A DNA stretch of 64,000 nucleotides from Turritopsis dohrnii (Eukaryota > Cnidaria > Hydrozoa > Anthoathecata > Oceaniidae): contig BQMF02000120.1 of NCBI GenBank assembly GCA_027922465.2, positions 496,001 through 560,000 on the forward strand, read 5' to 3'. A program made the translations under genes and the position numbers. Below, in pieces: positions 39,310 to 61,815 of the stretch; the stretch's first letter is position 1, and every line of letters begins with the position of its first letter. The notes under the pieces are model-generated. The model worked only from the letters and a program-made list of their open reading frames with translations, made no database searches and had not been told where the DNA came from.

Positions 39310-40677
39310 TCAATTCATTTGAATTTCCTCTATGACAGTTGTCTCCTTCGTTTCGCTTTTGGATTTTCGTTTTATATCCAGACACTTCTTTCCGCATTCA
39401 GCACAAAGTCCCAACGTTACGAGGAAAAATACAACAATAGTAGTATACTTTGCCAACCCATAATCAGAACCATCAAAAATATCTGTTAGAGATCGAACAT
39501 AATATGGTGTTATGGATGGCTTTCTGGTGTACTTTTCACTAAGATACAACTGATGTGGTTCATACAATGCCTTATTAAAGACCGAATCTTCGCAAGTTTC
39601 AAACGCATCTTGTTTTTCATCTTGAGCAGTTTGTTTACTTTTATGGATAACATCATCGATTTGAAACAGCAAAATGGTTTGATAACTTGAAAACCTTTTT
39701 GTTATTTTCAACGACTTCGTTTGTGGAAGAAGTTCTGGTTGACTTTCAAAGTAAAATGAAGCAGCAGTCAAATCAATGAGAGCAGCTTTTGCTTCATTGT
39801 TTAAAACACTTTCAAAGACTTCCTCATACGAACTGTAAGTGACACCATATCCCCCTAGAGAACTTGCTCTGGTTTCTTCGAAAGAGTTTCTCAAAGTCGC
39901 CAATTTTTCTCCTTGAACTGATAAATCATTTTGGGCTTCATTCATCACTGTAGCTGTTACCATGGAAGTCAACAATAAACTTAAAATTGTCCAACATACA
40001 CTGATAACACGTGACATAAAGTGTTTGGGCACAACATCTCCGTATCCTACTGTTGTCATAGTGATTATAGAAAGCCATATTGAAGTAGGTAAACTTCTAC
40101 TTAACGATAGATATGAACGTTTTTCAGCAATCGATTCAAAGAAATTGATAAAAAAAGCAACTAGAATTGCCAACAATATTGCAAGATAAATCACAGGAAA
40201 GCTACTTCGTATTCCTTTAAAAAGTTTGTTGATCAACAAAACGTCCGTGTTTCTTGCTATTAGAACAACACCATTGCTACGAACTAGAGTGCTACTTGAG
40301 AACTCTGATGTAGGATCTTTATAAATTCCAAATACAAAGATTAAATCATCTCGAGTTGCGTTGATATCTGATAACATCTGTTGTGGATTCTTCATGTATT
40401 TCCACATTTGTTCTATACTGTTTATTGGATGTATGTTGATTCTTATAGTTTTATAGAAAGGTAGACATGAGTTTCTGATGTATTGCAAGTGTTCTATAAC
40501 CATACCTTCATATGTTCCTGTTGTTGAATTCTCATATACATATGGAGGATTATTTTTCCAAGCCACCAAATGAACTGTCAGATTGTACACATCTCCATCC
40601 TCACCAATGGTTTCTTGTGATGAAATCGAAGGAAGTACACACCATATTGTCAGAAGAATTTGCTTGAAGTTAACCAT
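39310..40677 (-). CDS. Ionotropic glutamate receptor-like channel with K+ filter, copy A
   Basis: Single exon, 455 aa. It begins with a signal peptide (1-20). Then comes a ligand-binding S1 lobe (about 30-158; NNPPYVYENSTTGTYEGMVI resembles the PF....N..YEG..ID start of iGluR S1). A membrane helix spans 159-180. The pore helix and filter read SIWLSIITMTTVGYGD (199-214), a second helix about 222-246 ends LLLTSMVTATVMNE, an S2 lobe spans 250-405, and a last helix 410-426. The order S1-M1-pore-M3-S2-M4 is that of ionotropic glutamate receptors, but TVGYGD is the potassium-channel filter. Precedents are cyanobacterial GluR0 and rotifer AvGluR1. The arginine that binds amino-acid ligands in typical iGluRs is not obvious, so the ligand is unknown. 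No intron is seen, unlike the neighbouring host genes. The gene appears intact. Confidence 0.82.
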   Translation of the reverse strand: MVNFKQILLTIWCVLPSISSQETIGEDGDVYNLTVHLVAWKNNPPYVYENSTTGTYEGMVIEHLQYIRNSCLPFYKTIRINIHPINSIEQMWKYMKNPQQMLSDINATRDDLIFVFGIYKDPTSEFSSSTLVRSNGVVLIARNTDVLLINKLFKGIRSSFPVIYLAILLAILVAFFINFFESIAEKRSYLSLSRSLPTSIWLSIITMTTVGYGDVVPKHFMSRVISVCWTILSLLLTSMVTATVMNEAQNDLSVQGEKLATLRNSFEETRASSLGGYGVTYSSYEEVFESVLNNEAKAALIDLTAASFYFESQPELLPQTKSLKITKRFSSYQTILLFQIDDVIHKSKQTAQDEKQDAFETCEDSVFNKALYEPHQLYLSEKYTRKPSITPYYVRSLTDIFDGSDYGLAKYTTIVVFFLVTLGLCAECGKKCLDIKRKSKSETKETTVIEEIQMN

Positions 40678-40710
40678 TGCTGTTTCGGTTCTATAAGGGT
40701 AAAAATTTGG

Positions 40711-40719
40711 CCTTTTATA
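40711..40719 (-). promoter_or_regulatory. Possible TATA box of copy A
   Basis: TATAAAAGG on the minus strand, 34-42 bases before the ATG of copy A. If used it would give a very short leader. Placement is by motif only. Confidence 0.3.
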
Positions 40720-42705
40720 TTTCTTTTTATATTTCTCTTTACCTGGGTTAGCTGAATTTAAATCCCGAAATTGCAGGTGGAATGGAACTCTGTTTGATCC
40801 ACATTTTTCGCTATTTTTTATTTATTTATTTTTTAAAAATAATCATAAAATCTCTAAATAGACAGAAATAAAATTCATCTATGCGAAGGTTAAAATATGT
40901 TCGTAAAAATAAAATAAAATAAAATAAAATAGATTAAAAGAATTGATTATTTTGCACACTTGGGAGAATTGTAGCCGGGCAAAGAGAAAGATCGAAAATC
41001 AAAACATGCTGTGTGAAAACTGGGGAAAACTGAAGCCAATTTATAGATAATCTCGAGGGACTCGCATTGACTTTTGTCAACGAATCAAGAACGTGTGGCT
41101 TAAGATATCAAATGTTTACAGTCTTGCTTCATCGCAACCAAAGGAAAATCATCCACACAATCTGCGTTCACATTTTTCGCTATTTGGATGTTGAATTGAA
41201 TATTTTTTAAAGTAATCAATCGTATTATTAGAGCAATTTGTTGTTAAAATTATGGTAAAGTTTGTCCTCAGGTCTTTATTGATGTTATTTCACAAGATGT
41301 GTTTCATTATTAATAAGACCAGAGATATGTAAAAAATATATACATATTTAATGTGATAAATAATAAATGTTAACATATATAAAATAATATATTACATATC
41401 TCTGATAAGACCTTAGTGATTTTATATGATTTTATATTTTATATGAATATGAACTATTCAACTATCCAACTGTTGTTTTGTAATGGAAATTATTTTCCAG
41501 TAGTTCTTTTCTTTTCCTTGATTTGAATTGATCTGTATTGGTTGGTTTTGTGGTTTTGTGGTATTTTCGTATATTTGATATTTGAGGCATCACAATTGTT
41601 ACCTTGCATAGGTTGTGCTTAACGTGATTTAATGTCATTAAACAACATCGCAAAGTTATGCAGAGGTAACATCTCTGTAGAAAGCGATCTGTTAGTTCCG
41701 TGTCTTGTTAGCATGCTAGAAATAGGGCTAAGTCTAAAAGCAGCAACATTCACATCAATGACTTCTAATCACAAATTAAGGATCTTCAATTTTTTTAAAA
41801 AAATATTGTCTTCAGTGGATAAATTGGTGTCCCATTTCAGCTAGATATTAGTAGTGAGATGTAATCATCCGGTTTTTCATCCGGTCCAATACTCCTCTTG
41901 TTTTGCTTTTTATGTAAACATCCCCAAATAAAGCAAAGACTTCTCCTAGTTAATTATCCACACATTTGCAGAGAGTAATTTGTCAATATCGTGATTTGAT
42001 CTAAATTTTTTTTTGTCAACCGTTTAACCGCTTCCATAGCGTTATTCTTCTACAAAGTAAAACTTTTGCCGTAGTAATGACTATTTCTTATTATCTCTTC
42101 TCCTTTCTTATCTACCAAAAACAATTAGGTTCCTTATTTACAAGAAAAACCACAGAAAAACCTCAAATTCAAAGTCAGCACTACGAAATTTTGCAACCTG
42201 TAAATTTTCATAGGAATTGAACCATTTTCAAAAGTATCAGTCCATAGTGGTCCATAATTGACAAAAAGACCTTTCTTTTGACCAAACAATGAATAAATCG
42301 CCGATAAGAAATTTTAGCGTGTGCAAATCTTCATAAGAATTAAACTACTTTCAGAATTTGGTCAAAAAATACCTTCCCCAAAAATGCCTTTTTGGTTGTC
42401 AAATTCAATCAGCAATTTCAAATTGCATTGTTCGCAAAGCATTAGGTAGACGGTCTAATGTTCGTTTTGTCATAAAAATAATAAAAATTAGTTTGATAGG
42501 GATCCCTGGTTTGACAGACTCCAAAACTGTCACGAAAATTTTTAAACAATGAATAAATGGTACCAAATGTAGCTATATTTTATTGTCTGATATTTTCGCG
42601 GGAAGTAAATTTCTCGCACTTATTTTTTTGCGATCCCGAAGGTTACACTGAATTAAGGTCTCGATGTGATCGATAGAGTGTGAATGTCCTTCAGTGTTGC
42701 TATTA
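40720..42705. other. Spacer upstream of copy A
   Basis: Holds a short (AAAAT)n run at 40908-40932 and a fold-back sequence at 41320-41404 (separate entry). The stretch 42380-42440 resembles 58695-58755 (AATCAGCAATTTCA words), so it may be a worn dispersed repeat. No gene is supported. Confidence 0.4.
41320..41404. repeat. Fold-back sequence with CAGAGATATGTAA arms
   Basis: The left arm CAGAGATATGTAA at 41320 and its exact complement at 41392-41404 enclose an AT-rich spacer; the flanks AAGACC and GATAAGACC repeat directly. The same arm forms a perfect palindrome at 53841-53862. Confidence 0.6.
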
Positions 42706-42950
42706 CAGTGGAATCTGTCTAAAGCGGACATGGTCTAAAGCGGACATCTCTGTAAGACGGACACTTTCCTTTGGAGCGGAATGATTTCTGGTCAAATTCT
42801 CATAAGATATCCTCTATAAGGCGGACAGTTATAAAGCGGACACTTTGTAAAGTGGACACTTTTTTTCGCACCAAATGGCGTTTTCCCTATAAAAAAATCT
42901 GTTTAAAGCGGACACAAGACAAAAAAGTCAATTTTTGGTTTTTATTCCTT

Positions 42951-43355
42951 TCATTTTGTGCATTCTGTAACTTTTTTATTTACAATTTCTAAACTTTTTT
43001 CAATGTTTTTCTTTGCCCAATCAACAGCTTTATCAACACCAACAAGTTCGTATTTGACAGGGATCTCTAAGCCATAACCAGCACCTCTGTTCACGCGTTT
43101 TCCAGTTACTCGGCACTTTAATTCACAATTGGGGATCTTGGTAAAGCGGTTAAATATTTTGCTGAGATTTTTAGGGACATGTCCAACTGTACGTCCCTCA
43201 AAGGTGACGGCCATCGCAAACTTGTCGTGTACGTTGTCTTCTTCGTGGATGAAAGAAAAATCTTCGTCACAGTCAAAGTCAAAGTCAAAGTCAAAGTCAA
43301 AGTCAAAGTATGCTGCTATCAGTGATGAAAAAAATGGAGGATTTTCAAATATCAA
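42951..43355 (-). CDS. HIRAN-domain-like ORF inside the Tigger-like element
   Basis: A 134-codon frame. The first part includes an (FD)n run made by a six-base tandem repeat (GACTTT). From about residue 35 it reads FIHEEDNVHDKFAMAV, then GRTVGHVPKNLSKIFNRF, ELKCRVTGKRVNRG and GYGLEIPVKYELVG, the pattern of HIRAN domains (N.hD..AvaV....vGhvP..ls). HIRAN domains bind DNA 3' ends in HLTF-type remodelers and also occur as stand-alone proteins. No helicase domain follows. The true start is unclear because the N-terminal part is tandem repeat; expression is unproven. Confidence 0.55.
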   Translation of the reverse strand: MIFENPPFFSSLIAAYFDFDFDFDFDFDCDEDFSFIHEEDNVHDKFAMAVTFEGRTVGHVPKNLSKIFNRFTKIPNCELKCRVTGKRVNRGAGYGLEIPVKYELVGVDKAVDWAKKNIEKSLEIVNKKVTECTK

Positions 43356-43393
43356 ATAAAAAGCAATCTTCGATCCGAGATTACTTCAAGTAG
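43334..43393 (+). pseudogene. Possible transposase C-terminus with PIP-box motif
   Basis: A 19-codon frame ending KKQSSIRDYFK and stop. QSSIRDYF fits the PCNA-binding PIP box (Q-x-x-I-x-x-aromatic-aromatic), and pogo transposase is known to carry such a motif. It is therefore likely the 3' end of a lost transposase gene, tail to tail with the HIRAN-like ORF. It is a short motif, so chance is not excluded. Confidence 0.35.
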
Positions 43394-43693
43394 ATTATTA
43401 CATGATGTATAAATTTGATAGTTGATCTTTGTTTCAAAGTTGTTGTTCATTTTTTGATATCAGTTTTATCTCGTAAAAGATTACACAGTTGTTCTTTATT
43501 TAGTCTCTGTCTAATTTTCCTATCAAAATTCAATAAAACAAAGAAAAAACGTTATAAATCAAAATTAGTCATTTTTTCGGCAAAATCTTGATCTGAGAGT
43601 CATTTTTGGGTGCATTCTCTATAAAGCGGACACCTCTCTAAAGCGGACACTTTTTTGCGCACCAATGGTGTCCGCTTTAGACAGATTCCACTG

Positions 43694-44633
43694 TAGTGGC
43701 TTTTTAATTCGAAAGTTTTTTCGCTCACGTGAAGACAATACATTGCACGAACGTAACACTCCAGCCCTATTCAGTCATCGCCAGAGCGGCTAGAGGTAAA
43801 GGAAGGAAAATTTGTTTCTCTGTCTCAAACAGGGGAGGGGGGTCTCTTTCCAAAAGATGACGTCAACTCAGGGGGAGGGGGTCAAAAATCTTGAAAAAAT
43901 GGTTGACATCATTTGTGAACAATCCCTAAAGGGAATCAAAGAAAAATCTTCAGATTTTCGCGGAATTAAATTTTGCGGCTCAATGCTTCAAAAATGTTCG
44001 CGGAATTTGTTTCCGCGGTTTACGAAAAAGCAATTCGTGGAATTAAATTTCACAATATTGCGAAAAAAAACACGAAACTGCGAAATATTCTCCCCGTTAA
44101 ATTTCTTGACAATACAGCAATCTTGCCCTTATTGATACATTTGACCACCATAAATATAGATTGAAGAAACTTTTAAAAACGGACAAAGATGGGAGTGCAA
44201 GCGAATCATTATTAAATTATTTCCAATATTATTATATGACACAGTCATTGTTTTCTGAAAGAAACTCAAATGGAACCCGAAGCGTCGCCGTTAATGTTGC
44301 TAAATCAACACTAGAAAATCTCAAATGCGTATCGCAGCTAATAAATATATTTGTGTTAAAATCTTGTTAGTTTCAATATATACAATTTTAAGCGAGATTT
44401 TAAGTCATTATTTCAAGCTACTTCTCTTCAATAATACTTTAAACCATATTTCAGCAAAATGTAGTTCCATCTTTTACAATAACATCCGACAATAAGTAAA
44501 TAATAAGAACAATGACACGCCAGTGTAAGAGGCAGTTTGGATAAAGTTATTTTACAACATAGTATTATTTGCAGGACTTCCAATTCCACCATTTGTTTCA
44601 CAAATTACATTGCTTTTAATTGCTTTTTATTTT
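43694..44633. other. Spacer between the Tigger-like element and copy B
   Basis: The stretch 43950-44110 repeats GCGGAATTAAATTT words, like the ACCTTAAGG element family, and may be a worn relative. The 3' side (44540-44633) resembles the 3' flanks of receptor copies C and D (AGTATTATTTGCAGGACTTC versus ATACTATTTACAGGACTTTC), so the duplicated block extends beyond the coding region. Confidence 0.45.
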
Positions 44634-46046
44634 TTATTCTGAATTTGATTCCGATTTTTGAGACATTGTTTTAATTTTTTCTTCTTTGATGATATCATCA
44701 ATTATCGATAGAATTGATTGCAGTCGACTGAATCTCAGTTCTGCTTCCCAGCAATCAGTATTTTCTTTTTCCGTTTCTTCTTTTGAACTTTCTTTCCAAA
44801 AATAGTACCTTGCTATTTGACAGCATAACCCAAGCACTCCCAACAGAAACACAGTGACAGTTGTATATTTCACCAAGCCATGATCGGAATCATCAAAAAT
44901 GTCTGTTAGAGGTCGAACATAATATTGGTCTACCAGAGGGTTTTTGGTGTGCCGTTCATTCAGATATACCTGTTCTGGTGTGTGCAGGGTATATCGGAAA
45001 ATTAATTGTTCACAAGTTCTAAACGAGGTTGAATAGCCAGCATGAAGGGCAACATATCTTCTTTCTCTTATAGTATCATCAATTTGAAATAGTAGAAAAC
45101 GTTGATAACTTTTCACCTTTTTTACTATTTTCAACAACTTTGTTTGTGGAAGAAGTTCTGGATGACTTTCAAAGTAAAACGAGGCAACATTGATATCAAT
45201 GAGAGCAGCTTTAGCATCATTATTTAGAACCCCTTCAAATATTTCCTTATATGAATTGTAAATCACATTGTAAGCTCCAAGGGTACTTGTTCTGGTTTCT
45301 TCGAAAGAATTCCTCAAAGTTGCAAGTTTTTCTCCTTGAACTGATATTTCACTTTCTGTTTCATTCATCACTGTAGCTGTTACCATGGAGATTAAAAACA
45401 CACTGAATAAAGTCCAAAGTGCGCACACTACGTGTGTTAGTATATGTTTAGGTGAAACATCTCCATATCCTAATGTGATCAAGCCACAAATTTGAAAACC
45501 TCTTTTGAATGATATACAATGTTGGTGTTTGAAGGATTCAAAAATACTCACCAAAACAACCATCAAAAGTAACAACAACATTCCCAAATACATCACTGGG
45601 AAACTGTTACGTATTCCTTTAAAAAGTTTATTTATCAATAGAACATCTATGTTTTTGGCAATTAATACTATACCATTGCCACGAACTAGTGTGCTGCTTT
45701 CAAACTCTGAAGTAGGATCTCTATAAATCCCAAATACGAAGATTAAATCATCTCGAGTTGCGTTGATATCTGATAACATCTGTTGTGGATTCTTCATGTA
45801 TTTCAATATTTGTTCTATACTGTTTATTGGATGTATGTCGATTCTTACAGTTTTATAGAAAGGTAGACAAGAGTTTCTGATATATTGCAAGTGTTCTAAA
45901 ACCATACCTTCACTTGTTCCTGTTGTTGAATTCTCATATACATATGGAGGATTATTTATCCATGTCACCAAGTGAATTGTGAGGCTGTACTTTTCTTTGT
46001 CTTTGGAAATGACGTCACTTGATAATATAATGTGAAGTAAACACAA
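44634..46046 (-). CDS. Ionotropic glutamate receptor-like channel with K+ filter, copy B
   Basis: A single open frame of about 470 codons, largely colinear with copy A: S1 lobe with NNPPYVYENSTTGTSEG, helix 1, filter GLITLGYGD (TLGYGD at 191-196 counted from the TTG at 46046), helix 2 ending ISMVTATVMNE, S2 lobe, last helix, and a longer charged tail ending in SESNSE. The signal peptide continues upstream of 46046 (ISKTLAATFLCLLHIILSSD), but the codon that aligns with the ATG of copy C is AAC and an in-frame TAG lies one codon further upstream (46081-46083). Either the start was lost or an upstream exon supplies it (TTGTCTAG could be an acceptor). The pore helix is seven residues shorter than in copy A. 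Confidence 0.7.
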   Translation of the reverse strand: MCLLHIILSSDVISKDKEKYSLTIHLVTWINNPPYVYENSTTGTSEGMVLEHLQYIRNSCLPFYKTVRIDIHPINSIEQILKYMKNPQQMLSDINATRDDLIFVFGIYRDPTSEFESSTLVRGNGIVLIAKNIDVLLINKLFKGIRNSFPVMYLGMLLLLLMVVLVSIFESFKHQHCISFKRGFQICGLITLGYGDVSPKHILTHVVCALWTLFSVFLISMVTATVMNETESEISVQGEKLATLRNSFEETRTSTLGAYNVIYNSYKEIFEGVLNNDAKAALIDINVASFYFESHPELLPQTKLLKIVKKVKSYQRFLLFQIDDTIRERRYVALHAGYSTSFRTCEQLIFRYTLHTPEQVYLNERHTKNPLVDQYYVRPLTDIFDDSDHGLVKYTTVTVFLLGVLGLCCQIARYYFWKESSKEETEKENTDCWEAELRFSRLQSILSIIDDIIKEEKIKTMSQKSESNSE

Positions 46047-46288
46047 AAATGTTGCAGCTAATGTTTTGCTGATTTTGTTTTTCTAGACAATGTTTTCTGT
46101 CTCTTATTTTTGATTTGATTTTTGCAAAGAATTAGGAATATTTCATTTTTACTGGGAGAGCAAGTCCAAATTATTAAGAGTGGTGGATTTCATTTATTTG
46201 AATTGTTCTAATTCCTTTCTTTGTTTCTTTCTTTTGCTTGCAGTTTTGAATTTTCTTTTAAAACCTTACTCACGTATACGCAGATGCT

Positions 46289-46411
46289 TACTTCGTGATT
46301 GGTTCTTTAGGAAAACACTACTTCGTGATTGGTTCTTTAGGAAAACACTACTTCGTGATTGGTTCTTTAGTAAAAACACTACTTCGTGATTGGTTCTTTA
46401 GTAAAAAGTAC
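46289..46411 (-). repeat. Four tandem CCAAT-containing 30-bp repeats upstream of copy B
   Basis: The unit TACTTCGTGATTGGTTCTTT plus AGGAAAACAC occurs four times with a period of 30 or 31. On the strand of copy B each unit contains AACCAATCACGAAG, a CCAAT box. A single related copy (TATTTCGTGATTGGTTCC) lies at 56870 upstream of copy C. It could be promoter DNA; that role is inferred. Confidence 0.6.
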
Positions 46412-46677
46412 ACAAGGAATTGCATCGTAGGTTGAACACTGCAGGATGTGGCTCACAATTGCATCACTGCGTCAGGCAATATTGAGAAATTCTCAAAGTA
46501 CATGATGATTTTAAATAGGTTTTCATAAAACTTTCTTCCTGATGTGATATTTGAAATATGAATTTATACTTTACAATAAACATTTTTTGAACACTCTTGT
46601 GTAAATTTTTATAAAAATTGGAAGTGCATCAGAATTTGATTGAAATTTTTGTTTGAGCCTCGAATATTCTTAACATA

Positions 46678-49600
46678 CTAGCCGCCAAGGCGGCGTCGCT
46701 CGCCGCCCATGTGCACCTGCTCTGTGTCACTGTATCAATAAACGTCAAATTTCCTTATAAACGGCTCGTATAACTTGTGCTCAACCAGAAGCAGATTCGA
46801 AGTCACAACCTCTGGTAAAACCAATCTTTTATCAGTGTAACAATACACTCAAAACGTAGAGAGAGAAAACTTCAACTTTTTATTAGCTTTTGTTTTAAAA
46901 AAGTTACGCGCTCTAACATGGGTGCTATCAAACAGGGGGAAAATGGTTTCTCTTCTTAAAAAGTTCACACGGAGGAGAGAAAAAAGGCACGTGCTAAATG
47001 AATAAATAGAATAAAAAAACGTTCGATCAGAACGCTTAACAATTAAAAGAAGAAATTAATTTATTAAAAGAAAAGCAAAAAAAAACATTTTGTTTTTATA
47101 TGATACTCTTTTTTTACCTATCGGTTTTTAAACATTTTGATTGCTCAAAAAAAAGTTCACCCGTCTCAGACAGTCAGGCAAGAGTTAGTGGCAAACCAAA
47201 CATATGCTGCCACGTTCTGCCACTGCTGCTTTTTGTCCAAAATGTTTAATCAGTTAGTTTGATGTACTGTTTTCAAAGCCAAGTCAACGTGGAATATAAA
47301 ACTAACAATAATGATAAAAACAAAACGGTATTCATATTAGTTCATCAGCCAAAAAAAGTCACGTTCGATTGGGGTTGCAATGTATTTGCTTCGAACTCAC
47401 GTCGCACACAAAAAAAGAAATAATTTCGCTCACAACTTAATCTACCATTTTGCGTGACTTACAAACAAACAAACAAACAAACAGAGAATCGGCTATTAAT
47501 ATATAGACTAGCCGCCAAGGCGGCGTCGCTCGCCGTCCATGTCCACCTGCTCTGTATCACTGTATCAATAAACGTCAAATTTCCTTATAAACGGCTCGTA
47601 CAACCAGAAGCAGATTTGAAGTCACAACCTCTGGTAAAACCAATCTTTTATCAGTGTAACAATACACTCAAAACGTATAGAGAGAAAACTTCAATTTTTA
47701 TTAACTTTTGTTTAAAAAAAGTTACGCGCTCTAACATGGGTGCTATCAAATGTAAGGGGAAAATGGATTCTCTTCTTAAAAAGATCACACGGGAGGAGAG
47801 AAGAAAAGGCACGTGCTAAATGAATCAAGTGAATAAAAAAAACGTTCGATCTGATATAAAATAAAATAGATTAAAAGAAATCGATTAAAGACAACTATTA
47901 TGACAAAAGCAAAAAAAAAATATTTTGTTTTATGATATTTTTTTTTTTACCTATAGGTTTTTAAACATTTTCATTACTCGAAAAAAAAGTTCACCCGTCT
48001 CAGACAGTCAGGCAAGGATACGTTAGGATACACTGGCAAACCGAGATGCTACCACGTTCTGCCACTGCTGCTTTTTGTCCAAAATGTTTTATCAGTTAGT
48101 TTCTTTGTATTTAGTTGATGTACTGTTTTCAAAGCCAAGTCAACGTGGAATATAAAACTAACAGTAATGATAAAAACAAAACGGTATTCATATTAGTTCA
48201 TCAGCCAAAAAAAAGTCACGTTCGATTGGGGTTGCAATGTATTTGCTTCGAACTCACGTCGCACACAAAAAAAGAAATAATTTCGCTCACAACTCAATCT
48301 ACCATTTTGCGTGACTTACAAACAAACAAACAAACAAACAGAGAATCGGCTATTAATATATAGACTAGCCGCCAAGGCGGCGTCGCTCGCCGCCCATGTC
48401 CACCTGCTCTGTATCACTGTATCAATAAACGTCAAATTTCCTTATAAACGGCTCGTACAACTTGTGTTCAACCAGAAGCAGATTCGAAGTCACAACCTCT
48501 GGTAAAACCAATCTTTTACCAGTGTAACAATACACTCAAAACGTAGAGAGAGAAAACTTCAACTTTTTATTAGCTTCTGTTTTAAAAAAGTTACGCGCTC
48601 TAACATGGGTGCATCAAACGTAAGGGGGAAATGGTTTCTCTTCTTAAAAAGATCACACGGGAGGAGAGAAAAAAAGGCACGTGCTAAATGAATAAATAGA
48701 ATAAAAAAACGTTCGATCAGAACGCTTAACAATTAAAAGAAGAAATTAATTTATTAAAAGAAAAGCAAAAAAAACAAACATTTTGTTTTGATATGATACT
48801 CTTATTTTACCTATCGGTTTTTAAACATTTTGATTGCTCAAAAAAAAAGTTCACCCGTCTCAGACAGTCAGGCAAGAGTCAGTGTTAAAAACCGAACATA
48901 TGCTGCCACGTTCTGCCACTGCTGCTTTTTGTCCAAAATGTTTAATCAGTTAGTTTCTTTGTAATTAGTTGATGTAGTGTTTTCAAAGCCAAGTCAACGT
49001 GGAATATAAAACTAACAATAATGATAAAAACAAAACGTTATATTCCTATTAGTTCATCAGCCAAAAAAAGTCACGTTCGATTGGGGTTGCAATGTATTTG
49101 CTTCGAACTCACGTCGCACACAAAAAAAGAAATAATTTCGCTCACAACTCAATCTACCATTTTGCGTGACTTACAAACAAACGCACAAACAAACAAACAA
49201 ACAGAGAATCGGCTATTAATATATAGACTAGCCGCCAAGGCGGCGTCGCTCGCCGCCCATGTTCAGCATGCGTTGACTTCACGAAAAATAAAATTAAGGA
49301 ATTGGCAACCAAAAGTGTTACCATGTTGTAGAGCTCGAAAAACTGATTAAAAAAATGTATGGGATCGTTCCGCTACGATCAACCGTTACAGAGATATCAT
49401 TCTTCAAAGATTTTGATGACGTCACAGACCCCTCCCAAAAAAATTAGACCCAAATTTTTTGTCACCCCATCGTCTGTATCGCGGACCCGTAAAAACGTCA
49501 GTTATCCTAGAGGCAGATTCGAAATCAAATATCAAATATCAGTTTAAAAAATGGTTCCAAAAAAACCCAAATTTCATGAGTTATTTATTTTTTAAAACAA

Positions 49601-51658
49601 TCGTTGATCAGTACAACAATGCACTCAAAACGTAGAGAGAAAAAAACTTTTTATTAGCTTTTGTTTTAAAAACGTTACGCGCTCTAACATGGGTGCTATC
49701 AAACAGGGGGAAAATGGTTTCTCTTCTTAAAAAGATCACACGGAGGAGAGAAAAAAGGCACGTGCTAAATGAATAAATAGAATAAAAGAAACGTTCGATC
49801 AGAACGCTTAACAATTAAAAAAAGAAATTAATAATTTATTAAAAGAAAAGCAAAAAAAAAAAAAAAAAAAAACATTGTGTTTTGATATGATACTCTTTTT
49901 TTACCTATCGGTTTTTAAACATTTTGATTGCTCAAAAAAAACGTTCACCCGTCTCAGACAGTCAGGCAAGAGTTAGTGGCAAACCGAACATATGCTGCCA
50001 CGTTCTGCCACTGCTGCTTTTTGTCCAAAATGTTTAATCAGTTAGTTTCTTTGTATTTAGTTGATGTACTGTTTTCAAAGCCAAGTCAACGTGGAATATA
50101 AAACTAACAGTAATGATAAAAACAAAACGTTATTCCTATTAGTTCATCAGCCAAAAAAAAGTCACGTTCGATTGGGGTTGCAATGTATTTGCTTCGAACT
50201 CACGTCGCACACAAAAAAAGAAATAATTTCGCTCACAACTCAATCTACCATTTTGCGTGACTTACAAACAAACAAACAAACAAACAGAGAATCGGCTATT
50301 AATATATAGACTAGCCGCCAAGGCGGCGTCGCTCGCCGCCCATGTCCACCTGCTCTGTATCACTGTATCAATAAACGTCAAATTTCCTTATAAACGGCTC
50401 GTACAACCAGAAACAGATTCGAAGTCACAACCTCTGGTAAAACCAATCTTTTATCAGTGTAACAATACACTCAAAACGTATAGAGAGAAAACTTCAACTT
50501 TTTATTAACTTTTGTTTAAAAAAAGTTACGCGCTCTAACATGGGTGCTATCAAACGTAAGGGTAAAATGGATTCTCTTCTTAAAAAGATCACACGGGAGG
50601 AGAGAAGAAAAGGCACGTGCTAAATGAATCAAGTGAATAAAAAAACGTTCGATCTGATATAAAATTAAAAGAAATCGATTAAAGACAACTATTATGACAA
50701 AAGCAAAAAAAAATATTTTGTTTTATGATATTTTTTTTTTACCTATAGGTTTTTAAACATTTTCATTACTCGAAAAAAAAGTTCACCCGTCTCAGACAGT
50801 CAGGCAAGGATACGTTAGGATACACTGGCAAACCGAGATGCTACCACGTTCTCCCACGGCTGCTTTTTGTCCAAAATGTTTTATCAGTTAGTTTCTTTGT
50901 ATTTAGTTGATGTATTGTTTTCAAAGCCAAGTCAACGTGGAATATAAAACTAACAAAATAATAAAAACGAAACGTTATTCCTATTAGTTCATCAGCCAAA
51001 AAAAGTCACGTTCGATTGGGGTTGCAATGTATTTGCTTCGAACTCACGTCGCACACAAAAAAAGAAATAATTTCGCTCACAACTCAATCTACCATTTTGC
51101 GTGACTTACAAACAAACAAACAAACGCACAAACAAACAAACAAACAAACAGAGAATCGGCTATTAATATATAGACTAGCCGCCAAGGCGGCGTCGCTCGC
51201 CGCCCATGTTCAGCCTGAGTTGAGCTTACGAAAATTAAGATTAAGGAATTGTCAATGTTACGAAGTGTTACCATCTTAAAATTCTGAGCAAGAAAATGTA
51301 TAGGATCATATGTCTATGACGCACCGTTATGGAGATCAAAAATTTTGATGACGCCATAGGCCCGTCCCCCCGAAAATTTAGACCTAAATTTTTCGTCACC
51401 CTATCGCCTGTATCGCGGACCCCCAAAAACGTCAATTATCCCTATTGGTTATCGAGATAATTTTCCCTAAACGTCGCATTCGATTAGGGTCTTAATGCAA
51501 TGGTTTCACACTGACGTCGTCGCGCACAAGAAGAGAAATAATTTATGTGTGATCTTACATTGCTGACTCTCTTTCGCAGTTCACATCTACCATTTTGCGT
51601 GACTTACAAACAAACAAACAAACAGACAGACGGAGAATCGGCTATTAATATATAGACT
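46678..51658 (+). repeat. Tandem array of a 0.85-kb repeat, six units
   Basis: Units start CTAGCCGCCAAGGCGGCGTC at 46678, 47508, 48365, 49228, 50311 and 51175, and end with (CAAA)n then AGAGAATCGGCTATTAATAT ATAGA. Four units are 830-864 bp; unit 4 is 1083 bp and unit 6 is 484 bp. After the GC-rich start, units 1, 2, 3 and 5 continue CATGT(C/G)CACCTGCTCTGT, whereas 4 and 6 continue CATGTTCAGC and share a GATGACG(T/C)CA...GTATCGCGGACCC segment. Unit 4 returns to the common sequence later, so it looks recombinant. No protein is encoded; repeated ORFs here are by-products. It could be RTE-type retrotransposon 3' ends or a Helitron-like array; the sequence does not decide. Confidence 0.85.
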
Positions 51659-51860
51659 CTTAATTTCTAGATTGACAAACGTCTTATAATATGCTGGCCA
51701 ATGAAACCAATGAAAAACTATTATGTGATGTGATATTTGAAACTATATGTGATCTTTGAAATACGACTAGTAAATTCAAATTCGTGTGGCTGTTACACAA
51801 TAAATTTCAATAAATAAGTGACTCTGCTCAAGGGCGTTGTTAGTATAGGAGGTGATTATT

Positions 51861-52514
51861 ACCTTAAGGGAAGAAATTTTGGCGGGAAGAAATTCCGACG
51901 CAATTTAGCGGGAATTAATTTTGGCGGATGCCCCCAATAACAATAACCAATTTTCAATTAAGTGAAGAAAAGTCCATCTTTCCTTCTTTGTTTTTTCAAA
52001 AAACAAAAACATTACAGGTTTTTATTACAAGTTCAAGTTCATTATCTATAATAAAATCGAAAGCGTTTCGTTCAAAGTCAATGTTATCATCTTTGGACTG
52101 GATTGGATTTTTTGTCGTCGCCATCGTCTTGCACATTGACAAAATCATCTAAAACATCTGATCCCGACAATAAAAGAATTGGAATTAAAGACATCAGAAC
52201 CTTTTTCTCACCAGTTCAGAGAGAGCCAGCAAAAAAAGACAAGGGTCAGAAGAGAGCAGCAATCGCTAGTACTGATTGATACAAAATGAACAATGATGTG
52301 CAATGCTGAAATTCTAGCATTTTATACCTTTTAATTCCTTTTGAAAAAAAATTGGTGGTTTACGAAAATAATCAAATTCGCAGGGAATTAATTTTGGCGG
52401 ATCCCAAAAATAATCATTTTTGTCGGGAAGAAATATTGGTGGATTTTGGCAGTTTTTAAACCTATTCGCCAAATCCGCCAAAATTTATTCTCGCTAAAAT
52501 TTCTTCCCTTAGGT
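51861..52514. mobile_element. Inverted-repeat element, ACCTTAAGG family, copy 2
   Basis: Left end ACCTTAAGGGAAGAAATTTT, right end (reverse-complemented) ACCTAAGGGAAGAAATTTTA, both followed by GGCGGA-type words. ATT flanks both sides (51858-51860, 52515-52517), a possible 3-bp target duplication. A plus frame inside reads GIKDIRTFFSPVQREPAKK before a stop, possibly a protein end with a PIP-like motif. No transposase is present. Confidence 0.7.
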
Positions 52515-53115
52515 ATTTCTTTTTCATCATTTACTATTGCGCTTTAATATGCTATTTACGAGGTTCATTTGCTAAAGTTGGTTTGAAATTTTTCATATAG
52601 CTTTTTGTCGAACTTTATGGAATCTTAAATTTTTCAAAACATCTTTTTTTGTATGCGCTGAGGAGTTGCAAGGAATGAAACCATCCAACGGTGTAAAGAT
52701 GAGTCTTAGAAGAAAGACGAGTATACGATTAAACGTTTTCAAAGGAGGTGTGAGTTCAGAAAGGTCCCATGAGCAGTGACGATGGAAATACTTATAGAAG
52801 AGACAGAGGGAAGCTACACGGCGACGATTAGACAGAGAATGGAGCTGTGCATAGAGCTCAGGTCCAGTGAGATTAAAAACACGCCTCTGAATTACAGTAA
52901 GCAAGGAAAGAGTCGAGGCAGAAGCACCAGCGCAGATATGACAACAGTACTCCATGGAAGGCCGAGTAACAGACTTATAAGCCAACCTTCATAGAAGCTG
53001 AATTTGAAATTGAAGTGATGTAAGCAGTCCAAGAGAGATCCTTAGAAAAAGAAAGACCAACCAAACGAAATGAGAGAGATTTAGGGAGATCACTTCCATC
53101 CATTCTATCAGACAA

Positions 53116-54787: not shown

Positions 54788-54875
54788 TAAGTAATTGACG
54801 ATGTTGTTGCAATTAGCAGAAAGAAGTTTCGTCTTAGAGGCATTAAAAGGAACACGCCAATCAGAGACCAATGCG

Positions 54876-55188
54876 TTATAAGTTTTGTATTGTCAATTCT
54901 TGAGAAATGATTTATTGATCAGTATCTAGCTAATGGCATAGCCTCATCGCCTCATGTACCAATTCTTGTGACATTAATTTTAGAAAATAAATATTTGTAT
55001 TTTCAAAAGTTAACACTACCTATCTAATGGCTTAACAATGTTAACGAACACGCAAATACGTAAAAAGTTAACGATGTTTTATGACTTCATACTATTTACA
55101 GGACTTTCAATTTCATGATTGTTTCGTTTCAAAAGATATTACAATGATGATCTAAAAATTATATTTTCATTTTTTCTAATTGTTCCTT
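54876..55188. other. 3' flank of receptor-channel copy C
   Basis: Includes ATACTATTTACAGGACTTTC, shared with copies B and D. It must contain the 3' UTR of copy C (minus). No other feature is seen. Confidence 0.45.
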
Positions 55189-56631
55189 CTATTCCAAATT
55201 AGATTCAGACTGAAACATTTCTTTAGCTTTTTCCTCTTTGATAAGATCTTCAATTATTGTCTGCATTGATTGTAGTTGTTCCAATCTCAGACCAGTTTTG
55301 GAAGAACTGTTATTATCTTTATCCCTTCCTTCTTTTGAAGACTTTTTCGTCAGATAGATCCTAGACATTTGATAACATATTCCTAGGATTGCCAACAAAA
55401 GCACAGTAACACTTGCATATTTCACCAAGCCATGATCGGAATCATCAAAAATATCTGTGAGAGATCGAACATAATATGGTGTTATGGATGGCCTTCTGGT
55501 GTATTTTTCACTAAGATACAACTGATGTGATTCATACAATGCCTTATTAAAGACCGAATCTTCGCAAGTTTCAAACCTAGCATCATATTTTTCATCTTGA
55601 ACATTTTGTTTACTTTTATGGATAACATCATCGATTTGAAACAGCATAATGGTTTGATAACTTGAAAACCTTTTTATTATTTTCAACGACTTCGTTTGTG
55701 GAAGAAGTTCTGGATGACTTTCAAAGTAAAATGAAGCGGCAGTCAAATCAATGAGAGCAGCTCCTGCTTCATTGTTTAGAACACTCTCAAAGATTTCCTT
55801 GTATGAATTGTAAGTGAGCCTATATCCACCAAGAGAATTTGCTTTTGTTTCTTCGAAAGAATTCCTCAAAGTTGCGAGTTTTTTACCTTGGACTGACATT
55901 TCACTCTCGGTTTCATTCATCACTGTAGCTGTTATCATGGAGATCAAAAACACACTGAATAAAGTCCAAAGTGCGCACGCTACGTGTGTTAGTATGTGTG
56001 TAGGTGAAACATCTCCATATCCTAATGTGATCAAGCCACAAATGCGTAATCCTCTTTTGAACGGTACACAACGTTGGTTTTTGAGGGATTCAAAAATACT
56101 CACCAAAATAATTATCAAAAACAAAATTAACATTCCAAAATATATAACTGAGAAACTGTGACGTATTCCTTTAAAAAGTTTGTTGATCAACAAAACGTCA
56201 GTGTTTCTTGCTATTAGAACAATACCATTGCTACGAAGAAGTGTGCTGCTGGAAAACTCTGATGTAGGGTCTTTATAAATTCCAAACACGAAGATTAAAT
56301 CATCTTTAGTTGCATTGATATCTGATAACATCTGTTGTGGATTCTTCATGTATTTCAATGTTTGTTCTATACTGTTTATTGGATGTATGTCGATTCTTAT
56401 AGTTTTATAGAAAGGTAGACATGAGTTTCTGATGTATTGCAAGTGTTCTATAACCATACCTTCATATATTCCTGTTGTTGAATTCTCATATACATATGGA
56501 GGGTTATTTATCCATGCCACCAAGTGAATTGTTAGGCTGTACTTTTCTTTGTCTGTGGAAATGATGTCACTTGATAAGGCAATGTGAAATAAACAACAAA
56601 ACATTGCGACCAACGTTTTTTCTTTCAACAT
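55189..56631 (-). CDS. Ionotropic glutamate receptor-like channel with K+ filter, copy C
   Basis: Single exon, 480 aa, with its own ATG and signal peptide (MLKEKTLVAMFCCLFHIALS). S1 lobe about 30-158, helix 1 about 160-182, filter GLITLGYGD (TLGYGD 202-207), helix 2 ending ISMITATVMNE, S2 about 250-410, last helix about 415-435, and a 45-residue charged tail. The helix 1-pore-helix 2 block and the tail match copies B and D; S1 matches all copies, and the S2 part (YQTIMLFQIDDVIHKSKQ, ETCEDSVFNKALYE, YTRRPSITPYYVRSLTDIF) matches copy A almost exactly. So C is a mosaic. It looks intact and is the likeliest working TLGYGD member. Function as a ligand-gated K+-permeable channel is inferred from architecture only. 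Confidence 0.82.
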   Translation of the reverse strand: MLKEKTLVAMFCCLFHIALSSDIISTDKEKYSLTIHLVAWINNPPYVYENSTTGIYEGMVIEHLQYIRNSCLPFYKTIRIDIHPINSIEQTLKYMKNPQQMLSDINATKDDLIFVFGIYKDPTSEFSSSTLLRSNGIVLIARNTDVLLINKLFKGIRHSFSVIYFGMLILFLIIILVSIFESLKNQRCVPFKRGLRICGLITLGYGDVSPTHILTHVACALWTLFSVFLISMITATVMNETESEMSVQGKKLATLRNSFEETKANSLGGYRLTYNSYKEIFESVLNNEAGAALIDLTAASFYFESHPELLPQTKSLKIIKRFSSYQTIMLFQIDDVIHKSKQNVQDEKYDARFETCEDSVFNKALYESHQLYLSEKYTRRPSITPYYVRSLTDIFDDSDHGLVKYASVTVLLLAILGICYQMSRIYLTKKSSKEGRDKDNNSSSKTGLRLEQLQSMQTIIEDLIKEEKAKEMFQSESNLE

Positions 56632-56991
56632 TTTTTATTATATTTTTGTTGGCAATGTTTTCTACCTCCGACTCACATAAAGATGGCAAGTTGTTTTTGG
56701 AATGGAATAGGAACGTCTTGTATTTACAGAAAGAGTACGCCAAAGTTTTTGAAGATTTGATAATGAATGGTTTCTATTTGTTTGAATTATTCTAAAGTTT
56801 TTCATTCTTTTTCTTTTCCTTGCAGTTTTTAATTTCCGTTTCAAAACCTTTATTACTTTCATGCAGATGTCTATTTCGTGATTGGTTCCTCATCAACAAT
56901 GAAAAATTAAATCGTGCTAATTTAATTGCAAAATTTGAAATGCTATTCTCTCTTATAAAGATGATAAAAGTAAACAAAAAGCTGCACCATA
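56632..56991. other. 5' flank of copy C
   Basis: Probable promoter region (minus). It shares with the 5' flank of copy B (46130-46290) the stretch TCATTCTTTTTCTTTTCCTT, the following TTGCAGTTTT segment and the CGTGATTGGTTC word, so the duplication includes upstream sequence. Confidence 0.45.
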
Positions 56992-57825
56992 CAGTGTGTC
57001 CCAGAGAATTCGGTCTGAGATTTTAACAAGCTATAACTTTTCACACATATATCAGATTTTAGAGATTTTTACATCATTCGATAGCATTTCTTTCAAGGAT
57101 TTCAAAAACCTATATTTTAAATAATTTAGTCCAACACCTTTGTAGTAAAAAGGATTTCTTTAAACTGTCACGGTCATTAACTTCTTAATGGTTAATAAAA
57201 GTAAGTTTTCACGTGCGATTATTCTTTTGTTTATTAAGAACATGTGGTGGTGTTATTGAACACACTAAAATTATAATCTCATCACAAAGTTAAAAATTGT
57301 GAGACGGGGGCTTCTACAAAATGTTTTTGACATCATATGAGCAATCTTTAGCTGCTACAAAAAATGTTCTCCACTGAGATCCAGAGTCTATCAGAGTTGA
57401 GAAGTAAAGTTGTTGGCGCAGCAAATAATCTTAGACAAAATCAAAATTTTATTCGCCACTCTTTATGACAGCAAGAGCAAATAGCTGTGTCCAGAGAAGC
57501 GGGGGACATGTTGAGACAGCTTAAAGTTTTGTTTTTAATGACTCTTGTGTTTTACAGTCACTTGACTTGTTATTTTTTTTGATAATGACCTTTGATAGCT
57601 GTTATTGAAAGTTGTGTTAATTAACCATTCAGAAGATAATTGGATTTTTTCATGGCAAAATCCTTAATTGTTCCCAAACTAAAAGGATTTGGAGAACAAA
57701 ATGTATATTTTTAAAATCTATGAATAAAATCCTATCGAATGGTGTAAAAGTTGCTGAAATCTGATATATGTGTAAAAAGTTATGAGCTGTTAAAATCTCA
57801 GACCGAAATTCTCTAGGACACACTG
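56992..57825. mobile_element. Mariner-like non-autonomous element with about 110-bp inverted ends
   Basis: Both ends start CAGTGTGTCC(C/T)AGAGAATT and continue GGTCTGAGATTTTAACA, CACATATATCAGATTT and CATTCGATAG, with TA on both borders (56990-56991, 57826-57827). Length is 834 bp; no transposase is recognised inside. Confidence 0.78.
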
Positions 57826-57865
57826 TAGATTGAAGACTGAAACTGGCTCACAATTAGTGAGCTTA

Positions 57866-58570
57866 AGCAACTACGACGGCAACGTGGACGACGACGTGAG
57901 CAAAAAGAGCAAAATAATAAAAGTACTTGTGAATAGTATTTTGAAGAACTTCTTTTTATTGAAGAACTCATTCAATTGATAAACTTATAACGACTAGAAA
58001 GTTATTGAGCTTCAATAAAATCTACATAAGAGAAAAAGACTTTCTCTATAGATGAGTTTCTAAGTGACGTGATGTTTATAAACATTAGTGTTTTTTGCTC
58101 GATAATTGCTGTGAGTTTCAACATAAATGCTTAATAGATCAAGTCAATTTCCTACCAATATGCGCACGCATCTTGGTTGGCAATTAGATGCTCTCTGCAC
58201 ACTGTCGGTTAAACCGGTTCTCAGGAGGCGTTTTTAAGACAAAAAAAATTATTAAAAATAATACTCATTAGCACTCGAAATCTATTTTTGTGAAGTTTAT
58301 TAAATTTTTAGTTTAAACAGATCTTTAACTGGTAATTAACATCAGAAACTCATCTATAATCGCGTCTCCGTTGTCAGTACGACTTCAAATCATGACTTTT
58401 CACGTTGTGCATAGAACGTGCAAATATGTTAATGATGTAATTATCTTACAAAATTTTCCCAAAGGTCTCATAAGTAGTAGACTCCCTTTCAAAACAAACT
58501 CCAAATAGAAAACAAAAGCTTTAGTTTCAAACACGTCGCCGTCTTCGTTGCCGTTGCGATGTCTCCTCAA
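57866..58570. mobile_element. Possible inverted-repeat element with GCAACGGCAACG words
   Basis: The left side has GCAACTACGACGGCAACGTG then GACGACGACGTG; the right side, reverse-complemented, reads GGAGACATCGCAACGGCAAC then GAAGACGGCGACGTG. The inverted similarity suggests a MITE of about 0.7 kb. The borders are not defined, and no coding sequence is seen. Confidence 0.4.
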
Positions 58571-59379
58571 AAGGCACTCCTTTGACGAAATTATAAAAAT
58601 TGACCCCTGAACTAGAAATAACCGGTCAGAAGTGTTAGAGCGCACTAATATAAGTCGAAGAAATTTCAAATTTCGACTTAAAATTTACAAATTTGATCCA
58701 AAAAGCTTCCTTTCGATTGTCATATTCTAAATCAGCAATTTCAGACTGCATCGTGTGCAATTTATTGATTAATTATTTTATATATTTTATATATAAATTT
58801 ATTTGTTATAAAAATATTTACAGAGGATAGCTATTTTAGTTTAGAATAAAAATTGCTATCAATATAGGTCCTCTATCTCACAGTCAGTCAAATAAAATTT
58901 CTATCAAAAACTTAAAAAGTATTGAAAACCTATAAATATAAAAACCAATAAAAAGTAGCTTGAAGAAAATTAAAGCCAACATCTGCAAAGAATCAAAAAG
59001 AAAGGAAAAATTTGAAAAAACAAACTCACGAGGTTTGAAGTAGGTAGCCATATGAAAATCTTTGAGCTCAAAATGAGCAATCATGTAAAAAATTAAAAAT
59101 GATTATCAGCAAAAGCCCTTAACTCGTTCCCGAAAGGCGTGGAGATCACCCACTCCCCTTATCTCTATTTACAGAGAGTTAAAAGCTCTCGCACACATAA
59201 AGAAACAATAAGACCGGGCAACCTCCGGACGAACCTTCGAAAGAGTCCCGATCCTTCCCTGGTTTCTTGTTCTCATGGAATGATTACTATTTTAACGATA
59301 CAAGCTTGCCTTTTTGACACGTCGTATAGATGATCAGGCTCGAAATCGTTTCTTCCTTGTAAGTTTATCTTTGAAGTTG
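58571..59379. other. AT-rich spacer
   Basis: No gene or complete mobile element is supported; a long TA-rich run lies near 58760-58830. Confidence 0.4.
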
Positions 59380-61070
59380 CAGGACAAGTTCAAGAAAAAA
59401 TATGCAGTTAAATCTGAAAACTGACACAATCATTGCATTGTAAACCGTTTTTCAGCCTCCAATGTTAAATAAAATCTCAACTTTTTTAGAAGATGTGGCT
59501 TCCTTGACATAGATATATTAGCTTTACCAAACAGATTATTCATGGTTTGAGTAGGTTCGATCATGGTCCCAAGGTACGTGTAAGAATTGGTGGTATTTAT
59601 GAGATACCCATTGAACGACACTTCTAGGCCATTGCAATTGTTTAACTTTCTACGTGTATCAGCATGGACTACGTTTTTCCTTTTTTGGTGTTAAGAATCA
59701 AATCGTTGATGGAGAGATAATTAGAGATGTGTTGCATATCGATGTTTAATGATCTATCCAAAGATTCTTTGCCAGAAGTGATAACATTTGAATGTAAAAC
59801 AGCATCTTCTATATTATTAAAATATAGTAAGAAAAGAAGGTGTCCCAAGATCGAGCTTTGGAGAACCCCACATGTTTTTCCTGCAGGTGGTGATGTCGTC
59901 ATCAAACTGTACGCATCGATGTCGGCCGAATAGGGAGTCTGAAAACCATGTTATTTCAAACTTGATACTCCATAAACAGATAACTTTTGCAATAAAACTG
60001 AATGGCTGCTCGTAACAAATGCCTTTTGGCAATATACAGATCGGTCTATAGTTATCAGTGTTTGTTGTATCACCTGACTTGTGTATTGGTGCGATTTTCC
60101 AGTCCTTCGGTATTATGGATGTCTGAACGGATACATTTGTGAGATGAGACAGAGGTTTCAGAACAAAAGCACTGTTGAGTAGTGCTGAGTGATGAGTAGT
60201 GGAGGTAATTCGTCCAAACCGGTTGCCTTATCTTTTTTTTTATTTTCTTCAACTGGTTTTGTACGAATGTAACAGAGACGTACCTGAACTTGAATTTTTC
60301 TGTTGTTCTAAGGGATGTGATTGAAGCGAAGCTCCAAGTACTGTTTTTTAATGGAAATGCTTTCTCTTTTAAAGAACGAGCATTGTTGGAGAAGAAAAGA
60401 CAAAATGTTTGTTCCTTGGAATGAAGGTTTCCTAGTTATGATTTGATGAAGGGTACAAAATTCGAAGACTTACTTTTGGAGCCATTTGGAATGATCTCTT
60501 TGATGTAACTCCAAAATTTTTGAGAACTTCGAGCATTTTCTTGTAACAGCCGTTGATGGTAATCTTTTTTCGCTCTACTAATCGTTTTTTGTATTCGTCC
60601 CAATCCTCTTGTTGCTTGGATTTTTGTGCTTTACGGAGCATTTGGTCACGTTTATTAAGATAGTCTGATATTTCCCTTTCATTTTCTTAATGATCTTGGG
60701 TGCATGTTTGTCATAAACAATTTTCAAGTTTTCGTTAATATACCAAATTTCTTAAACGTCATTTAGTCGATAAACAGTCCCAGTCAATTTTACGAAGATC
60801 GGATACCATTTCTTCTTTGTTGTATCTGCACTAATTGCGCGAGTGAATAACTGTATTTTTGTATTTCTAAAAGTTTATTTTACGAACACATCCAATGAAA
60901 TTATGATCTGAAATTCCCATTTCGATTACATCGGTTTTGGAAATGTTTTCTGCTTTGCTTGAAGTGATAATGTCAATTAATGGAAGGGAATTAAGGGAAC
61001 ATCTTTGATTCCAAGACCTTGAATGATTGTTGCCCATAATAAAAATAGCTAAGCAATCTCCACGTAGAAT
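59380..61070 (-). pseudogene. LINE remnant with endonuclease and RT pieces
   Basis: Minus strand, reading down from 61070: an endonuclease end (NNHSRSWNQRCSLNSLPLID, VIEMGISDHNFIGCVRKI), a linker (AQKSKQQEDWDEYKKRLVER), then RT pieces IPKDWKIAPIHKSGDTTNTD, NYRPICILPKG, CGVLQSSILGHLLFLLYFNN (from GVPQGSILGPLLF), LNIDMQHISNYLSINDLILN and YTYLGTMIEP. The order is that of a Jockey/CR1-type LINE. The catalytic FADD box is missing and frames are broken. Confidence 0.82.
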
Positions 61071-61289
61071 TAGTGAATTGTTGTTATTTTACTATTTTGT
61101 CAACGATAAATCAATAAATCAAAGAAACAAATATTGGATAAATAAATGAATTTTGAAATATCATGCTGCAGTAAATAAATAATAAAGAAGATTTGTGCAA
61201 AAACCAGAATGAGAGTTGACATAACGCTATTTTTACAACTTAATACTATTTACAGAGCATTTGTCCAGAATCCAGATATTTTGTGACAA

Positions 61290-61815
61290 TCTACAAATTA
61301 TGTTTTCATTCTTTCTAATTGTTCTCTTGACTCTGATTCCGACTGAAACATTGCTGCATCCTTTTGCTCTTCCATGATATCCTAAATCTCAGCTTGAATT
61401 GATTCTAATTGAACCAATCTCAGTTCGGTTTCGCAAAAGTCATTATTATCTTTTCCCGAAGCTTCTTTTGAAGTTTTTCACCTTGAACTGTTACCATGGA
61501 AGTTAAAAACACACTGAATAAAGTCCAAAGTGCGCACACTACGTGTGTTGGTATGTGTTTAGGTGAAACATCTCCATATCCCAATGTGATCAAGCCACAA
61601 ATTTGAAAACCTCTTTTGAATGATATACAATGTTGGTTTTTGAAGGATTCAAAAATGCTCACCAAAACAACCATCAGAAGTAACAGTAACATTCCCAAAT
61701 ACATCACTGGGAAACTGTTATGTATTCCTTAAAAAAGTTTATTTATCAACAGAACATCTGTGTTCCTTGCAATTATTACCATACCATTGCCACGAACTAG
61801 TGTTCTAGTGTTTTA
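61290..61815 (-). pseudogene. Receptor-channel copy D, truncated pseudogene
   Basis: The remains start in the end of S1 (TLVRGNGMVIIARNTDVLLI, with an in-frame stop in KLF*GIHN), then helix 1, GLITLGYGD and helix 2 to FSVFLTSMVT. The next words VQGEKL join directly to the cytoplasmic tail, so the S2 lobe and last helix are deleted. The tail has a further stop (SIQAEI*DIMEEQK). The 3' flank still matches copies B and C. It cannot make a working receptor. Confidence 0.85.

Follow-up and report, generated by a model that had tools for sequence, protein, structure and literature searches.

Glutamate-receptor-like channels with a K+-type filter have already been described, in the literature covered here, from bacteria and from one rotifer. 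The rotifer protein, AvGluR1 of Adineta vaga, is presented in the available portions of its sources as an animal protein resembling ionotropic glutamate receptors (iGluRs), with four membrane segments and a K+ signature (PMC12332018, PMC11479355). No description of K+-filter iGluRs in cnidarians was recognised in the literature searched, most subscription journals lying outside its coverage, and the main text of a 2018 survey contains none of the terms "potassium", "selectivity filter" and "GluR0" (PMC6307864). Here we analyse a stretch of 64,000 nucleotides from the hydrozoan Turritopsis dohrnii (contig BQMF02000120.1, below C120, positions 496,001 to 560,000; the window refers to this whole stretch), in which clustered single-frame genes encode glutamate-receptor-like proteins with a filter of this kind.

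The ionotropic receptors (IRs) of insects offer a further point of reference. According to the available part of the work of Croset et al., the divergent IRs of Drosophila melanogaster are derived from iGluRs, are mostly encoded by single-exon genes and are clustered, and IRs were not found there in Cnidaria (PMC2924276). Many chemoreceptor families are intronless, as stated in an excerpt of another source (PMC11526382).

With moderate confidence, we read the window as holding three of six clustered copies of a glutamate-receptor-like family of at least 30 members, equipped with a K+-type filter, likely ligand-gated, and with segments most likely converted between neighbouring genes. The K+-filter iGluR-like family with shuffled parts is real and large, and most likely chemosensory, although its function is inferred.

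Results

Gene copies in the window

The copies carry the segment order S1-M1-pore-M3-S2-M4, and two of their segments, M1-pore-M3 and a late-S2 cassette, define the types used below. Cassette edges are approximate, and positions within copies B and C come from alignment, except that of the copy C cassette, which is given as held in common with copy A.

39310..40677, minus strand: copy A, unbroken frame of 455 amino acids; pore type 1 (TTVGYGD, full turret), cassette type alpha
40228..40587, minus strand: copy A, S1 (residues ~31-150)
39928..40200, minus strand: copy A, M1-pore-M3 (residues ~160-250), the segment defining pore type
40036..40056, minus strand: copy A, filter TTVGYGD (residues 208-214)
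39472..39762, minus strand: copy A, late-S2 cassette (residues ~306-402), in common with copy C
39388..39456, minus strand: copy A, M4 (residues ~408-430)
44634..46082, minus strand: copy B, open frame; pore type 2 (ITLGYGD, short turret), cassette type beta, also found in copy G outside the window
45351..45602, minus strand: copy B, M1-pore-M3
44892..45185, minus strand: copy B, late-S2 cassette
55189..56631, minus strand: copy C, unbroken frame of 480 amino acids; pore type 2, cassette type alpha
55903..56154, minus strand: copy C, M1-pore-M3
55444..55737, minus strand: copy C, late-S2 cassette
61328..61812 (approximate), minus strand: remnant D, with late S1, type-2 M1-pore-M3 and a piece of the C-terminal tail

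Given the base composition, 455 open codons would arise by chance with a probability of ~7e-16. The frame of copy B at 44634-46046 counts 470 amino acids from a TTG and stays open to 46082. Of the four minus-strand copies reported in the first-pass annotation, A, B and C are confirmed as open frames, but D is broken, with one in-frame TAA and most of S1 and S2 missing; "intronless" holds for the coding frames of the copies and is shown for those frames only. The string NNPPYVYEN..EG near the start of S1 is present in A, B and C, as had been noticed, and the filter reads TTVGYGD in A, ITLGYGD in B and C, and TLGYGD, retained, in D. In all three open frames M1, M3 and M4 stand out as hydropathy peaks. 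The signal peptides claimed earlier correspond to hydrophobic starts preceded by an ATG in A and C, but copy B is among the exceptions in a crude hydropathy test.

Protein class

Pfam Ion_trans_2 matches copies A (6e-13), B (7e-5) and C (5e-4, below the curated cut-off). Lig_chan reaches 2.4e-5 in copy A, but its 24.6 bits lie below the curated cut-off of 30.8; B scores 12.9 bits and C is unlisted. Across twelve aligned family members Ion_trans_2 is found in 12/12 and Lig_chan in 10/12 at E<=0.01. The 44 database proteins retrieved at E<=0.001 are of three kinds: ordinary K+ channels, bacterial GluR0-like proteins, and members of the family. The last are 24-42% identical over the aligned part and include three Hydractinia proteins, encoded on one or more contigs of length 28,449,500, a single Nematostella protein and a divergent Clytia protein. 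A profile of the twelve members matches five bacterial GluR0-like proteins at 99.9%, and when it is taken in pieces the pore carries the match (2.6e-36), S2 adding 1.9e-6 (89.5%). In an alignment-based protein search ordinary K+ channels swamp the matches, at least 49 in number. The AvGluR1 core is absent from 50 rows of the VIA lists, which excludes nothing.

AlphaFold models of A and C contain M1, a pore helix, M3 and M4 in the order S1-M1-P-M3-S2-M4 and a two-lobed ligand core, in agreement with the hydropathy of A, B and C. The fold match of the copy A model covers both S1 and S2 (residues 30-385), and NMDA and AMPA receptors are the first-ranked Foldseek matches. On these models, S1 and S2 together are predicted to form a two-lobed binding-protein fold.

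A large family in the genome

A genome search places the window at C120:496001-560000 of an assembly of 435.9 Mb in 891 contigs. C120, a contig of 943 kb, holds six unbroken copies, A, B and C in the window and three beyond it (contig coordinates):

566299-567741, minus strand: copy E, unbroken frame outside the window
575280-576650, plus strand: copy F, unbroken frame outside the window
577984-579402, plus strand: copy G, unbroken frame outside the window

The frames of A, C, E, F and G each have an ATG near the start. The family count rests on one genome query, for which 93 of 105 candidates were scored and 64 matches listed; loci were taken from 60 of the 64, leaving out C195, C184, C59:336091 and C212, and frames were kept only at >=300 amino acids with a G-x-G motif, so that short or broken members are excluded. 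Fifty-four single frames passed, 34 of which score 211-546 bits against the family profile, the next scores dropping to 121 and 69. Four of these 34 are second copies on other contigs, 97-100% identical and possibly haplotigs. At least 30 distinct single-frame members, a lower bound, are thereby spread over many contigs. The local amplification described earlier is real but reaches well beyond the window, and the members elsewhere in the genome rule out an isolated tandem family. A signal-like start is found in 28/30 members by the crude hydropathy test, the exceptions being B and one gene on C34.

The tree and the counts of 30 omit the four near-identical copies and a further locus, L038 (C12:1313500-1318500, about 1252-3435), which bears TTVGYGD, is a relative of the Nematostella-type protein P0010 and is apparently split by an intron in its pore region. 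Single-frame structure therefore marks the expanded group, of which L038 is a possible multi-exon sister. The FastTree tree joins two members, on C86 and C220, to the Hydractinia proteins (support 1.0) and the C120 cluster to other genes of the same genome and P0001-P0003 (support 1.0); several lineages of the family thus seem, from these groupings, to be older than the split from Hydractinia.

Two pore types

GYGD is present in 30/30 members, with T before x-GYGD each time, in frames that had been preselected by the looser G-x-G motif. The residue preceding the filter T is T in 18, S, I and V in 3 each, and F, L and C in 1 each. The stretch separating the M1 acidic residue from the filter measures 30 residues in A, 28-34 in the ten relatives and the five bacterial proteins compared, and 23 in both B and C; the turret of B, C and D is seven residues shorter than that of A, and E has the same gap. 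B and C are without the pore-helix Trp, and Ile replaces Thr before TLGYG. Type 1 comprises A, F and G, and type 2 B, C and E. Since the relatives have the type-1 pattern, the type-2 pore is likely the derived state. Type-1 pores are constrained (dN 0.10-0.20, dS 0.60-1.04), as is the type-2 pore between B and E (dN 0.02, dS 0.13).

A mosaic of segments

The six cluster copies hardly differ in early S1 (A residues 40-110; pS 0.02-0.10). In M1-pore-M3, pS is 0.53-0.63 and pN 0.33-0.39 between types, and 0.12-0.21 and 0.02-0.11, respectively, within type 2. Late S2 (A residues 306-385) divides the same genes differently, into {A,C}, {B,G} and {E,F}, with pS of 0.02-0.08 within and 0.38-0.46 between these groups. 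The cassette topology is rejected by the pore alignment (delta lnL 139, AU 1e-57) and the pore topology by the cassette alignment (delta lnL 255, AU 9e-7), S1 rejecting neither: pore type and late-S2 cassette follow different trees. At synonymous sites of A, B and C, like patterns are more clustered than in all but 1 of 20,000 shuffles. Similar pores beside divergent late S2 are also seen on C139 and C666/C556. Gene conversion is the most likely means by which segments passed from one neighbouring gene to another. Every combination of the two pore types and three cassettes is present among the six copies.

Two pairs of adjacent genes elsewhere, L018 (at the far end of C86) and L020 (C220), each consist of a TTVGYGD gene and an FTVGYGD or LTVGYGD gene, and in the tree each gene of one pair groups with its counterpart in the other (1.0 and 0.85), a possible echo of pairing.

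Putative ligand site

In amino-acid-binding iGluRs, according to the part of the survey consulted, Arg485 holds the ligand alpha-carboxylate, together with an acidic residue in S2 (PMC6307864). By sequence pattern, the six cluster copies share a string K/R-D-x-T-S-E-F/L, its first residue being Arg for B and G, Lys for A, C, E and F, and this pattern was found in 0/24 other members. We take the string to resemble the REExIDF region of iGluRs. The S2 acid column holds Asp in 12/30 members (A, B and C among them), Asn in 17/30 and Ala in 1/30. Where S2 begins, an S/T-x-E/D motif is conserved column by column (S 26, T 4; E 28, D 2; n=30). A charged ligand, not necessarily glutamate, is plausible for the C120 cluster.

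Other features

Between copies B and C (46677-51441) lie repeats of ~0.8-1.9 kb that are 86-94% identical, and frames near C and D (52593-52988 and 59430-60227) resemble, by eye, broken pieces of retroelements. Frames at 8126-8701, 12476-13525, 29419-29685 and 42951-43385 include exons of a hydantoinase/oxoprolinase, an anoctamin and a kinesin, and a HIRAN-domain frame just below the cut-off. Far from the cluster, a fragment at C59:336091-336177 matches residues 54-82 of the copy A S1 at 72% identity. Clustered single-frame K+-channel-like genes of 368-423 amino acids with GYGD (L027, L028 and L033-L036, on C350 and C229) score just 35-56 bits against the family profile and seem to form an amplified K+ channel family of their own.

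Discussion

The earlier interpretation of these genes as ligand-gated K+ channels is partly supported, and several results weigh against the reading that we prefer. S1 alone is unmatched by profile against bacterial GluR0-like proteins (probability 0.2%). The models are of middling quality (mean pLDDT 62 for A and 60 for C), much of the cassette (A residue 341 onwards) being modelled below 50; in the copy A fold comparison GluR0 ties in Z with solute-binding and sensor domains, and whole-chain Foldseek TM-scores are low (0.19-0.53 by target among rows naming receptors). Searches of PDB sequences gave no glutamate receptor among the 60 matches listed of 262 and of 447. SYTANLAA is given as the M3 gate motif of iGluRs in the accessible part of one source (PMC3483616), and SYTAN occurs in 0/46 aligned sequences. 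Because five of these are bacterial GluR0-like proteins, the motif does not separate the family from GluR0-like receptors, and the result calls for the label "iGluR-like" with no claim to a metazoan iGluR class. Within type 1, M1-pore-M3 copies are far apart at synonymous sites (pS 0.41-0.56; pN is 0.09-0.17), and segment-wise identity was looked for in the seven-gene C86 cluster and none was seen. The pore region of copy C (residues 140-260) retrieved 157 candidates from the protein database, 0 at E<=0.001 and no short-turret protein, so that the short turret is known from the C120 cluster alone. The pore of C is also less constrained (dN 0.12 vs dS 0.16 against B, and 0.24). Since copy B lacks an in-frame ATG ahead of EGMV, either it requires a further exon upstream or its translation is not normal. 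Finally, the full grid of pores and cassettes, given three pairs, is expected by chance in 6/15 pairings; it was dropped as significant evidence of pairing and is suggestive only.

A rival account is an ordinary relict family of amino-acid-gated K+ channels of the GluR0/AvGluR1 type, subject to moderate duplication and neutral conversion, in which cassette and short turret have no special role. Filter and segment order are the same as in GluR0-like proteins, the grid is not improbable by itself, segment-wise identity also extends to C139 and C666/C556, and gene conversion is common among tandem copies; but the 30 distinct members on many contigs, and an Arg-type S1 motif confined by pattern to the six cluster copies, with Lys or Arg, make this account doubtful. 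It is also unlikely that the type-2 copies B, C, E and D are pseudogenes or becoming so: the missing ATG of B, the truncation and stop of D, the poor constraint of C against B, and the lost Trp and shorter turret of B and C point that way, whereas B, C and E run for ~480 codons without an internal stop, GYGD is retained, dN/dS in the B-E pore is ~0.15, and a between-type dS of 0.92-1.40 speaks against recent conversion of the type-2 pore from type 1. The unbroken frames and near-start ATG of A, C, E, F and G make a pseudogene-only reading the less likely one for these five, B being excepted.

That a K+ channel pore independently gained an unrelated ectodomain, with no kinship to iGluRs, would fit the dominance of the pore in sequence matches and the S1 without a profile match; we consider it very unlikely, given that the predicted two-lobed match spans S1 and S2. 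A mosaic produced by mis-joined repeats is likewise very unlikely. The near-identical early S1 (93-100% over ~60 codons) is a possible mis-join site, but cassette partners differ (91-97% identity over alignment codons 331-390, 80-95% over 391-420) and, not being identical, are separate copies, all six copies lie on one contig, and segment-wise identity recurs in C139 and C666/C556.

Under the preferred reading, of a converted family of likely ligand-gated K+ channels, a ligand would close the two lobes, a tetrameric K+ pore would open, and the cell would be hyperpolarised or shunted. A large and diverse single-frame repertoire may serve the chemosensation of varied, possibly non-glutamate ligands, like insect IRs with their cation pore. 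The uniformity of early S1 would be maintained by gene conversion, which would also carry the late-S2 cassette from pore genes of one type to those of the other, and the short-turret subunits would most likely function in heteromers with type-1 subunits. The location of the cassette presumably corresponds to the flip/flop dimer-interface segment of AMPA receptors. A further step would be a modular chemoreceptor of three matched pairs, A-C, G-B and F-E, each a full-turret and a short-turret subunit with the same cassette, which would set ligand response and partner choice while conversion keeps partners matched, the whole being a K+-conducting inhibitory counterpart of insect IRs that evolved separately in cnidarians; this we put forward tentatively, as rather unlikely.

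A repertoire of at least 30 members with cnidarian kin would mean that a K+-type iGluR lineage persisted in animals and grew into a large family. If expressed in sensory cells, it would give cnidarians a chemoreceptor family with an inhibitory in place of an excitatory action, and would allow a direct test of the exchange of ligand-domain pieces between channel genes.

Among known systems, the metazoan AKDF, NMDA, Epsilon and Lambda iGluR classes differ from the family in their Q/R/N-site pore and in having an amino-terminal domain; it is their NMDA and AMPA receptors that rank first against the models of the family. Insect IRs are cation channels not known to have a K+ filter, and their likeness to the family lies in gene structure and expansion only. 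AvGluR1, compared here by its published description, is one amino-acid-gated receptor, as against a mosaic family of 30 here. From cyanobacterial GluR0 and bacterial GluR0-like receptors, which form a separate clade (100/100), copies A and C differ by the predicted addition of M4, and the family by an S1 unrecognisable by profile and by its organisation as a large single-frame repertoire in an animal.
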